The position numbers and the translations under genes are program-made. A stretch of DNA of 64,000 nt. Origin: Gordonibacter sp. An230 (GTDB lineage Bacteria; Actinomycetota; Coriobacteriia; Coriobacteriales; Eggerthellaceae). The notes under the pieces are model-generated. The model saw only the letters and a list, made by a program, of their open reading frames with translations. It was not told where the DNA came from and searched no databases. Below are positions 9,637-25,131 of this stretch, piece by piece. Every line of letters starts with the position of its first letter. Position 1 is the first letter of the stretch. The stretch spans positions 268,632 through 332,631 of the forward strand of contig NZ_NFJP01000001.1 in the NCBI RefSeq assembly GCF_002159915.1, read 5' to 3'.

Positions 9637-10429
9637 GTTACCCGCCTTCGCGTTTCGTACGTTGCCGGCGATTCGCATATGTGGATTGTCCGACAAGGGG
9701 CGTTCTGATCGAGCCTTGTTCTTCTGCGTCTCCGGTGTTTTCGCGAATTACATGAATGCGCCGAACGGGGTGTGGCCGATGCGCGCTCTTCCCCAAGCGC
9801 CGAATCTTTTCCTCGTGGTTGTGGCGGACCGTGCGGACATGCTTGTCGTCCGGGGGCGAGGGGGGGGCGGCGGGTCGAATGCGGTATGCAAAACGCAATC
9901 GATTACCAGGTTGTCCTGCGTCGAACGGGTGGGACTGCATGATCGCGGTGCGGTGCAAGGGTCGATCATTGCGTTCGGCAGCTGCACTCTGGGAGCGCCC
10001 GGCCAAGTTGGGGGAAGGGTGATCCGAGTGGGGTGGCTGGTGGGTCGCAGTTTGGCCTGGGGCCCAAATGGACGACGGCCGTGGGGATAGGGCGCAGCCC
10101 GATCTAAGAAAGAGAGGATCGAGGCGGTTGCGGCTCGATCCAGATAGGGGGCGGTTCGGGTGGGATGGGAATGACGGGGTCGGACTCGAATCCGATTCGG
10201 ACGGGGATGGCAACTCGGGTGCGGAGATGGCCCGAACGCCTTAATTTCGCGTCGGACGGATGTCCGTAGGCCTCGGGGTGGCAACTCGGGTGCGGGGATG
10301 GCCTGAACGCGGGATCGAACCTGGCGAACGACCGATCGTCGCCTGAGCCGGACTCGATTCGGTCGGAACGGGAACCGAACTAGCTGCGGACAGGCCTTGG
10401 CGGGAGTCGATGAGAGCGCAGTTCGATTC
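9637..10429. other. Long non-coding stretch with low-complexity GC words
   Basis: About 800 bases with no credible gene: open frames on both strands translate to Arg/Pro-rich text without motifs. The DNA is built from recurring words of the type GATCGAGG, GACTCGAATC and GGATGGC. It contains one 31-base direct repeat (10209-10239 and 10280-10310, two mismatches). It ends in a T-tailed hairpin on the plus strand although no plus-strand gene lies in it. Confidence 0.5.
10209..10310 (+). repeat. 31-base direct repeat, two copies
   Basis: Copies at 10209-10239 and 10280-10310 differ at two positions and are 71 bases apart start to start. Each begins GGCAACTCGGGTGCGG. They sit in non-coding DNA and no protein frame follows their period. 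Confidence 0.75.
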
Positions 10430-22350: not shown

Positions 22351-23694
22351 GTGATCAACCGTTACACGCGCCCGGCTATGGGCGCCATCTGGGAACTCGA
22401 GAACAAGTTCTCCATCTGGAAGGAAATCGAGGTGCTGGCGTGCGAGGCGCAGGCCGAGCTGGGGAAGTCCGGCATCACGAAGGAGGAGGCCGCGTGGATC
22501 CGCGCGCATGCCGACTTCACCGTGGAGCGCATCGACGAGATCGAGAAGGTGACGAACCATGACGTCATCGCGTTCACCACGAACATGGCCGAGTACATCG
22601 ACGCCGACGTGCCCGAGGGCCAAGAGCCGCCGAGCCGCTGGGTGCACTACGGCATGACGTCGTCCGACCTGGGCGACACAGCGCTGTCCTACCAGATCAC
22701 GCAGGCCATCGACATCATCCTCGAAGACATCAAGCAGCTGGGCGAAACGTGCAAGCGCCGCGCGTTCGAGTTCCAGGAGACGCTCTGCGTGGGCCGCACC
22801 CATGGCATCCACGCCGAGCCCATGACGTTCGGCATGAAGTTCGGCAGCTGGGCCTGGGCCCTCAAGCGCGCCCAGACGCGCATGGAGGAGGCCCGCAAGG
22901 TGGCCGCCACGGGCGCCATCTCGGGCGCGGTAGGCACGTATTCCAGCATCGACCCGTTTGTGGAGCAGTACGTGTGCGAGAAGATGGGGCTCTCTCCCGA
23001 TCCTCTGTCCACGCAGGTGCTCGCGCGCGACCGTCACGCACAGGTCATGTGCGCGCTGGCCGTGACCGCCGCCACGCTGGAGAGCATCGCCATGCAGGTG
23101 CGCCTCTTGCAGCAGTCCGATGTGATAGAGGCCGAGGAGCCGTTCACGAAGGGCCAGAAGGGCTCGAGCGCCATGCCGCACAAGCGCAACCCCATCACGG
23201 CTGAGCGCGTCTGCGGCCTCGCGCGCGTGGTGAAGTCCAACGCGCAGGTGGCGCTCGACGACGTGGCGCTGTGGTACGAGCGCGACATCAGCCACTCCGG
23301 TGCCGAGCGCGTGGCGCTGGCCGACAGCTTCATCGCGCTCGACTATATGTTCGGCAAGATGCAATGGATGCTCGACGGCCTGCAAACCTACCCCGCCAAG
23401 ATGGAGCATAACCTGTGGCGCACGCGCGGCCTCATCTTCAGCTCGAAGGTGCTGCTGGCGCTCGTGCAGACGGGCATCACGCGCGAGGACGCCTACGTGA
23501 TCGTGCAGCGCAACGCCATGAAGGTGTGGGAGGATATCCAGAACGCGGTGGACGGCCCCACCTACCGCGAGCGCTTGGAGGCCGACCCCGAGGCGAACCT
23601 GACGAAGGAAGTGCTCGACGAGATCTTCGACCCGTGGGACTTCCTCACCCGCAAGGACGTGGTGTTCGACCGTCTGAACGGGCTGGAGTTCTAA
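22351..23694 (+). CDS. purB: Adenylosuccinate lyase
   Basis: PurB cleaves adenylosuccinate and SAICAR to fumarate plus AMP or AICAR in purine synthesis. The GTG at 22351 gives V-INRYTRPAMGAIW, the normal N-terminus, and lies five bases after AAAGGGA; the frame extends to a GTG at 22336 with no such support. Family motifs include HYGMTSSDLGDTALSYQ, GRTHGIHAEPMTFG and the signature GSSAMPHKRNP. The length of 447 residues is normal. The stop TAA overlaps the ATG of the following (frame-interrupted) gene as TAATG. Confidence 0.96.
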   Translation: MINRYTRPAMGAIWELENKFSIWKEIEVLACEAQAELGKSGITKEEAAWIRAHADFTVERIDEIEKVTNHDVIAFTTNMAEYIDADVPEGQEPPSRWVHYGMTSSDLGDTALSYQITQAIDIILEDIKQLGETCKRRAFEFQETLCVGRTHGIHAEPMTFGMKFGSWAWALKRAQTRMEEARKVAATGAISGAVGTYSSIDPFVEQYVCEKMGLSPDPLSTQVLARDRHAQVMCALAVTAATLESIAMQVRLLQQSDVIEAEEPFTKGQKGSSAMPHKRNPITAERVCGLARVVKSNAQVALDDVALWYERDISHSGAERVALADSFIALDYMFGKMQWMLDGLQTYPAKMEHNLWRTRGLIFSSKVLLALVQTGITREDAYVIVQRNAMKVWEDIQNAVDGPTYRERLEADPEANLTKEVLDEIFDPWDFLTRKDVVFDRLNGLEF

Positions 23695-23710
23695 TGTTTG
23701 AAGTGACAAT

Positions 23711-23719
23711 GGGGGGGGG
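23711..23719 (+). repeat. Nine-G homopolymer, candidate phase-variation tract
   Basis: Nine consecutive G lie six codons into the reading frame starting at 23694. With nine the frame stops after 11 residues; with eight (or eleven) it joins the 442-residue nuclease frame. Such tracts slip readily during replication. A sequencing error in the run is the main alternative. Confidence 0.7.
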
Positions 23720-23743
23720 TATTCGATAGTGTTCTCCTGATAG

Positions 23744-23782
23744 GGCTAGCGCTACCGCTGATTGCGGCGGCACTAGCCCTTT
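23744..23782 (+). other. Imperfect hairpin overlapping the nuclease 5' end
   Basis: AGGGCTAG and CTAGCCCT pair with an inner CCGC/GCGG segment. It could act as a purB terminator, but it falls within the codons of the presumed N-terminal membrane helix and has no T-run, so this may be coincidental. Confidence 0.35.
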
Positions 23783-23802
23783 GCGCATGCGCTCTATGGT
23801 CG

Positions 23803-25131
23803 ATGAAAGATTATTACCATAGGCGTATGCGTGAAGAGTTCTACAAAGAGTACGGCGTGAAGCCCCAGCCCTTCTTTCGCGTTCATGTGCGGAGGAAGCG
23901 AGAGGGGGCTGGTGTTTTCGCTCTCGACTTTCCACGCTGGACGTTCCCCAACAAGGATGGCTCGAAGGATGGAAGGCGCAACGGCAATCGCGTGCAATGG
24001 GGTTCTTGCCGTTTGCGCATCGGACGGTTTCTTGTTGCGTGCGCAAGCCCATGGCATACGCTTCTGCTCGTTGAAGAGCTGCGGGGAAAGGGAGTTCCGA
24101 TAGCGCGATGTCTCGAAGAGCGAGACGGCTATGAGCGGTTCGTTCGCAAAAGAATCGGGTGGGAGTCGGCTTTTCGCGCGCAATCGATCTACGAATGGTG
24201 CTTTTCCCAGGGGAAGCGCGACAAGAAAGCGGCTGGCGATGCGTTCGAGCGATTCTGTGCGCAGCTGTATGAGCGGATGGGCTGCAAAGTGCATGTCACG
24301 TCAAGCTCGAATGACGAGGGGCGCGACATAGAGCTTGTGACCCCTGAGGGAAAGACGGCGATCGTCGAATGCAAATGCTACGCTCCCGACCAGTCGGTAG
24401 GTCGCGAACTCGTGCAGAAGCTTGCCGGCGCCAATCGAAAGTGCAAAGCTGATCGTATGATTTTTATCACCACTGGCAAGTTTTTGCCGACTGCCAGGCA
24501 ATGGGTTCGCGAGATCGATGACGATTTTGAGCTAGTGGACGGCTTTCGGTTGGCGCGCATGGTTGAGGAGGTGCGCCAAAAGGGACGTGCGCCCTCTCTC
24601 GACGAGTGGAAACTCTCCTTGGAGGGTATCGCGTCTTACTACCCTCCCGATTTTCCTCCCGGCAGGGCATATCCTCCGGTTTCGACGTGGGCTTCCCGCG
24701 ACGTCTTCTGGAGATCATTTTGGCTGGGCATCGGATTGCTCGGAGCTTCTCTTGTTTCGGCGCTGGCTGTGATGCATTTCGCTCCTCTGTCTTCTGCGGC
24801 CATCTCCCTTCGCGGGATAGCTCCGGCATGCTTGGGCGCGCTGGCGCCTTCGTCGGAGTACGTCCTTCCCGACAGCGATAGTCGGTACTACTCGCGGGAG
24901 GAGCTCGAAGCGCTGTCCGATTGGGAGTTGTATGTCGGGCATAACGAGATATACGCACGACACGGAAAAGGCTTTTTGCAGGATGATCTGGCTGAACATT
25001 TCTCCCAATGCAGCTGGTACGTTCGGCTTTACACCCCCGAAGAGTACGATGCCCTGCCTTCTCTGCTCAACGAATACGAGCAGGCAAACTCCGATCTTAT
25101 GTGGGAGGTGAGAGGTGAGCGGGGCGTGTGA
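23803..25131 (+). CDS. Membrane-anchored Mrr-like nuclease with YARHG domain
   Basis: The uninterrupted part is 442 residues. Residues ~140-260 form a restriction-endonuclease-like (Mrr_cat) domain with the PD-(D/E)xK pattern: Glu149 in AFERF, Asp175 in GRDIEL and Glu189-Cys-Lys191 in AIVECK. A membrane helix at ~303-324 leads to a C-terminal YARHG domain (NEIYARHGKGF at 381-391), usually extracytoplasmic. The ATG at 23803 has no ribosome site; the likely true start is 23694, out of frame by one G. Mrr-type nucleases cut foreign or modified DNA; tied to the membrane with an external YARHG domain it could sense envelope damage or incoming DNA. That role is inference. Downstream lie decayed genes. 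Confidence 0.75.
   Translation: MKDYYHRRMREEFYKEYGVKPQPFFRVHVRRKREGAGVFALDFPRWTFPNKDGSKDGRRNGNRVQWGSCRLRIGRFLVACASPWHTLLLVEELRGKGVPIARCLEERDGYERFVRKRIGWESAFRAQSIYEWCFSQGKRDKKAAGDAFERFCAQLYERMGCKVHVTSSSNDEGRDIELVTPEGKTAIVECKCYAPDQSVGRELVQKLAGANRKCKADRMIFITTGKFLPTARQWVREIDDDFELVDGFRLARMVEEVRQKGRAPSLDEWKLSLEGIASYYPPDFPPGRAYPPVSTWASRDVFWRSFWLGIGLLGASLVSALAVMHFAPLSSAAISLRGIAPACLGALAPSSEYVLPDSDSRYYSREELEALSDWELYVGHNEIYARHGKGFLQDDLAEHFSQCSWYVRLYTPEEYDALPSLLNEYEQANSDLMWEVRGERGV

Follow-up and report, generated by a model that had tools for sequence, protein, structure and literature searches.

A nine-G tract behind purB as a candidate phase-variation switch of a membrane nuclease in Rubneribacter

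Directly behind purB, the genome of Gordonibacter sp. An230 (G000) carries a membrane nuclease gene whose frame is +1 to that of the start codon overlapping the purB stop. The question raised by this locus is how such a gene is translated, and whether the run of nine G near its 5' end acts as a switch. The window is the whole stretch of DNA that was analysed, 64,000 nucleotides, and all unmarked positions refer to it.

The locus and its product

The nine-G tract is read from the sequence of the window at 23711-23719 on the + strand. Upstream of it, the purB stop TAA (23692-23694) and the ATG at 23694-23696 have one A in common, and GGAG lies 5 bases 5' of this ATG, in agreement with the ribosome site proposed in a preliminary description of this DNA. 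Reading from this ATG gives the leader peptide MFEVTMGGGIR, 11 residues that end at TAG 23727-23729, with a second in-frame ATG at 23709. The nuclease frame opens at 23707, runs for 474 codons without a stop to the stop codon ending at 25131, and contains no ATG, GTG or TTG 5' of 23803. The tract, the leader and the out-of-frame nuclease had been described exactly. The internal ATG at 23803 has no Shine-Dalgarno-like sequence, also as described, and the ribosome site of the ATG at 23827, where the public prediction P0001 begins, is weak at best. The features are as follows.

22351..23694, + strand: purB (adenosylsuccinate lyase), stop TAA at 23692-23694, GTG start by similarity to R. badeniensis
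23694..23729, + strand: leader frame of 11 codons ending in TAG, its ATG overlapping the stop of purB, from the sequence
23707..25131, + strand: membrane nuclease open frame, +1 to the leader, dN/dS 0.109 from 23719
23711..23719, + strand: nine-G tract, from the sequence, of equal length in R. badeniensis
23731..23793, + strand: first membrane helix, predicted from hydropathy, 5' of ATG 23803, dN/dS 0.19 over codons 23719-23802
23803..23805, + strand: internal ATG named in the preliminary description, GTA in R. badeniensis
23827..23829, + strand: ATG of the public gene predictions (434-aa form; P0001, P0002)
24229..24564, + strand: Mrr_cat nuclease domain, Pfam 2.4e-24 and alignment of relatives
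24718..24774, + strand: second membrane helix, predicted, hydropathy 2.02, a helix in a low-confidence structure model
24856..25101, + strand: YARHG domain, Pfam 2e-15, probably on the extra-membrane side

The purB frame is open from 22336 and matches Pfam Lyase_1 (1e-57) and ADSL_C (6e-21). Taken by itself, the tract is not beyond chance in the window: eight-G matches number 3 against 2.91 expected from dinucleotide shuffles, and Markov models expect 0.24-0.45 runs of at least nine per window. It rises above chance because it is exactly conserved, together with the frame break, in Rubneribacter badeniensis. The sole other run of at least eight identical bases in the window is an eight-G run at 9860-9867.

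Judged by domain and motif, the predicted protein is an Mrr-like nuclease. Mrr_cat scores 86.1 bits against a curated Pfam cut-off of 21, and the D, E and K of the GRD...ECK motif, which we take to be the catalytic residues, are intact here and invariant in an alignment of four relatives. The preliminary description expected the upstream frame to add a convincing N-terminal membrane helix, and the helix at 23731-23793 is strongly hydrophobic (its best 19 residues average 2.69 on the Kyte-Doolittle scale). The nuclease would lie inside the membrane and the YARHG domain outside; the structure model, built from 5 sequences, is of low confidence (mean pLDDT 51).

Mrr-like nucleases, type IV restriction enzymes and ZorD have the Mrr_cat domain in common with this protein. 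It differs from them in its two membrane helices and YARHG domain, and in having no full-length match to a defence protein model in PADLOC, where matches cover the nuclease stretch only (best 9.8e-11, to PDC-S02). NCBIfam has no match to the protein. By the models searched in these two collections it is not a member of a known defence system, and a defence role is only plausible, as is the control of DNA uptake that the preliminary description named beside it. Searches of plasmids return no match, three phage records show partial similarity only, and two matches among PDB sequences are weak and uninformative.

Conservation and selection in relatives

At the R. badeniensis locus (L064, NZ_PPEL01000122.1, separately published), purB ends in an overlapping TGATG; nine G and TATTCGATAG are also present, and the frame breaks in the same way. 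The nuclease proteins of the two species are 81% identical, with dS 0.99 and dN 0.107. Two species at this dS share the same nine G and the same break, which makes the arrangement old and a read error improbable. Comparison of tract lengths in relatives had been suggested as a check, with uniform eight G pointing to a sequencing error here; nine G in two separately sequenced genomes speaks against this. The other refuting outcome named, uniform nine G with expression from 23803, agrees with the tract length in both species and fails at the start codon, which is GTA in R. badeniensis and is thus not conserved. Expression from 23803 was rejected on this ground and on the selection seen upstream of it.

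In G002, the third Rubneribacter species covered, only a remnant of the nuclease gene lies behind purB, and the ATG overlapping the purB stop is present there too. A MAG of another Eggerthellaceae genus (L065) has a 60% identical orthologue behind purB that includes the helix and has an in-frame start at an ATG after GGGGGAGGGG. The tract sits about where the L065 gene has its likely ribosome site, and may have grown from such a site.

In R. badeniensis, a paralogue (L026 591-1985, G001:C89) has its Mrr part and YARHG part in separate neighbouring frames; the Mrr part has an N-terminal helix and a GTG start, and no G tract is present. A 37% identical relative from another genus (L078, G100:C181) lies beside purB-like sequence on the opposite strand. 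P0004, a 350-aa R. badeniensis-like form from a contig of ~1 Mb, has differing reading frames at both ends, from either sequencing indels or a broken allele. The short form P0002 represents 49 member sequences in the protein clusters. No cluster representative carries the in-frame nuclease form in a search that scored the 7,993 candidates sharing most words, and the R. badeniensis upstream helix has no match at E<=1 among 91 candidate representatives. Assemblies report majority alleles.

Selection was measured against R. badeniensis. Over the 28 codons 23719-23802, dN/dS is 0.19 in the nuclease frame versus 1.18 and 0.74 in the other two frames. The 19 differences in the helix codons fall 3/5/11 over codon positions 1/2/3 (binomial P 0.024). 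Under neutral simulation, 0.1% of runs end with amino-acid changes this few and no stop. The six helix replacements (V/A, P/L, A/L, A/V, L/F, S/L) involve no charged residue. Conservation is poor over the eight codons that follow, 23803-23826 (pN 0.31). Because the upstream stretch evolves as coding sequence in the nuclease frame, the helix is probably translated in that frame at least some of the time. The dN/dS of 0.109 over the whole gene points to a nuclease that was made during most of the divergence. Selection acts on the longer, membrane-anchored form, the one preferred in the preliminary description, and 23803 is not conserved.

G tracts and mismatch repair in the genus

MutS_V has no match in the three Rubneribacter genomes or in any of the 137 Eggerthellaceae genomes, with 11 of 14 controls positive. 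NucS matches occur in all three genomes of the genus, at a score about equal to the cut-off and over 38 of 124 positions only.

This genome has 98 runs of at least ten G and R. badeniensis has 102; in raw counts, uncorrected for size or base composition, these are the top two of 137 family genomes. The next family genome has 50, G002 has 33, and 3-7 per genome would be expected from Markov models of the window. Of the 98 runs, 19 stand no more than 150 bases from a contig end and may be artefacts, which leaves 79. Contigs finish in or near long poly-G, for example at G000:C4:118631-118703 (L061), possibly from a two-colour sequencing artefact or from breaks at variable tracts. Of 93 tracts, 25 have a long frame starting at them when read in the G direction and 20 when read in the C direction; a preference for 5' ends is not evident. 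On these counts the idea that G tracts generally mark 5' ends was dropped. Most tracts are not 5' switches, since the C direction is about as frequent as the G direction, and are perhaps mutational background.

The tract surveys cover runs at least 100-150 bases from the end of a stretch. The 98 places in this genome comprise 30 loci, 60 places in 53 stretches and 8 at contig ends that were omitted. In R. badeniensis, 67 stretches and 10 loci cover most, not all, of the 102 places. These stretches were picked for runs of at least ten, a choice that misses shrunken tracts except the nuclease tract, which entered through the protein search. In G002, 10 loci of the 33 places are covered.

Among 94 tracts of at least nine G in the surveyed stretches of this genome, 8 are alignable across the tract with the surveyed stretches of R. 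badeniensis; 1 has no tract there and 1 is ambiguous. The six clean pairs have lengths of 10/11, 10/11, 10/12, 12/12, 9/9 and 10/11, so that four of six differ, although draft assemblies may miscount tracts of ten or more by one base, so that any single 10/11 pair counts for less. The nuclease supplies the 9/9 pair, one of the two equal ones; the 12/12 pair lies just 5' of a regulator start. One of the 10/11 pairs (L158 run 1732-1741, L257 run 1576-1586) stands in DNA that is 99.9% identical over 1,011 columns, has no gene assigned and looks recently shared between the species.

Regulators are among the genes broken at such tracts. A PucR-type regulator (HTH_30 1.1e-11, PucR 3e-9) has its frame broken at G10 in this genome (L159 run 2603-2612, G000:C19:22501) and is open at G12 in R. 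badeniensis (L250, G001:C45:22900). Two membrane LuxR-type regulators have G10 here and G11 in R. badeniensis, one at L202 run 1806-1815 (G000:C73:90704) and L116 (G001:C6:24833), the other at L141 (G000:C12:40326) and L270 (G001:C77:1570). Both have 8-10 hydrophobic stretches 5' of the tract and, in both species, the DNA-binding domain downstream of it in a different frame. That LuxR domain, GerE, is matched in all four stretches tested (E 1.8e-16 to 3e-15).

Large secreted proteins form the other group, with the tract directly behind the signal peptide as judged by eye. One (L037 run 1500-1509) is out of frame at G10 and its paralogue (L215 run 366-374) in frame at G9. Another (L042 run 1501-1509) is out of frame at G9 with a passenger frame of 1,764 codons, and a further one (L035 run 1500-1509) is in frame at G10. 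Second G10 tracts lie upstream of the L042 and L035 genes (L040 run 1501-1510 and L032 run 1501-1510) and possibly act on transcription.

Readings of the tract and their significance

The reading preferred here, at a probability of about 60%, is that the nine-G tract is a phase-variation switch of the membrane nuclease that works by slippage. Translation would start at ATG 23694 (or 23709), coupled to purB. Slippage during replication would change the length of the tract, and eight or eleven G would restore the frame and give the membrane-anchored enzyme. Tract length would accordingly change in living populations. Among the possible routes, DNA slippage is favoured by the missing MutS match and by the other genes broken at tracts of differing length. 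As in contingency genes, the leader holds a homopolymer of about eight or more, the body is out of frame at the present length, and selection has kept the body despite the break. Length variation at the nuclease locus itself is absent, as the two species that retain the gene both have nine G; this lowers the claim to membership and, coming from two genomes only, does not decide it. The earlier claim of a phase-variable gene is supported in part: it has a good context, namely no MutS match, genes broken at G tracts and lengths that differ between species, and is held back by the nuclease tract itself, which has nine G and breaks the frame in each of the two.

A fixed site would also show equal lengths in the two species, and recoding is for this reason kept as the main rival, though an unlikely one. 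The tract would then be invariable, and RNA polymerase or the ribosome would slip on it so that a small, constant share of product enters the nuclease frame. The early stop of the leader frame after the tract, kept in both species, fits this explanation. So does the G run of herpesvirus thymidine kinase, where the available text of PMC5009743 describes low-rate reading in another frame, and one reference cited there names a net +1 shift in its title; that case is a viral drug-escape change, this one a conserved bacterial arrangement. Other G tracts of the genus, however, differ in length and state between species. A 23-base block around the tract is identical in both species and was considered as proof of a recoding signal; this was dropped, as the block is not exceptional beside identical stretches of 35 and 23 bases elsewhere in the gene. 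Readthrough of the purB stop, which is in the same frame as the nuclease, was also rejected: a second in-frame stop, TGA 23704, is present in this genome and absent in R. badeniensis, so readthrough is not a conserved route.

A start that works at nine G is rather improbable. It would lie at ATG 23827, where public predictions begin and which is kept in R. badeniensis and L065, or at the near-cognate CTG 23737 or ATA 23740, reached by re-initiation past the leader stop and likewise kept in R. badeniensis. ATG 23827 leaves the selection on the upstream helix unexplained and has the poor ribosome site noted above; the near-cognate codons have no close ribosome site, and such starts are rare. The lack of a standard start in either species, with the bare remnant in G002, would also suit a decaying pseudogene that lost its start before the species split and whose frame persists by chance. 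This is very improbable given a dN/dS of 0.109 over a dS of 0.99, motif residues that are intact and the absence of internal stops in both species. An error of sequencing or assembly in the tract length is largely refuted and the least probable of all: the assembly is a draft with artefact-like poly-G at contig ends such as that of C4, but the tract lies ~40 kb inside a 332-kb contig and the separately published R. badeniensis contig has the same nine G.

Host-adapted Proteobacteria and Campylobacterota are the textbook bearers of poly-G contingency genes, and the poly-G/C genes of Campylobacter, Helicobacter and Neisseria are a near parallel. The likeness to these genes lies in the 5' G tract, the in-frame and out-of-frame relatives and the differences in length, as far as the available text of PMC8355987 and PMC2823697 goes. 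Rubneribacter differs in being a gut actinomycete without a MutS match, in the membrane nuclease product and in a nuclease tract of nine G in both genomes. Mycobacterial homopolymer-tract phase variation shares the setting of an Actinomycetota lineage without MutS; in the accessible parts of PMC11551767, NucS of M. smegmatis does not repair indels of 1-2 bases, and the authors tie this to phase variation. Rubneribacter belongs to a different class, and its NucS matches are partial. Within the family, Eggerthella lenta shows reversible or targeted variation by different mechanisms, either megabase inversions at capsule clusters or prophage recombinases and diversity-generating retroelements, and slipped-strand mispairing appears only as a general alternative in the available portions of these papers (PMC13174815, PMC8778435). 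Among the matches listed from open-access titles and abstract openings, which include few subscription papers, no report of poly-G phase variation in Coriobacteriia was found.

The wider proposal stands at about even odds: that Rubneribacter runs a genome-wide poly-G switchboard without MutS, in which membrane LuxR and PucR regulators are severed from their DNA-binding domains, giant secreted proteins are parted from their signal peptides and the purB-coupled nuclease is gated, in combinations of surface, regulation and nuclease that differ cell by cell, the first such repertoire in Coriobacteriia. The finding that G tracts cut several regulators and secreted proteins in a genus without detectable MutS is a more valuable result than the nuclease. 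If true, the poly-G device would extend to a gut actinomycete family known for drug metabolism, again without detectable MutS, and a membrane nuclease that can be switched would stand out among contingency products as unusual. Annotators would be placing the starts of such proteins too late, and single isolates would be unreliable guides to phenotype.
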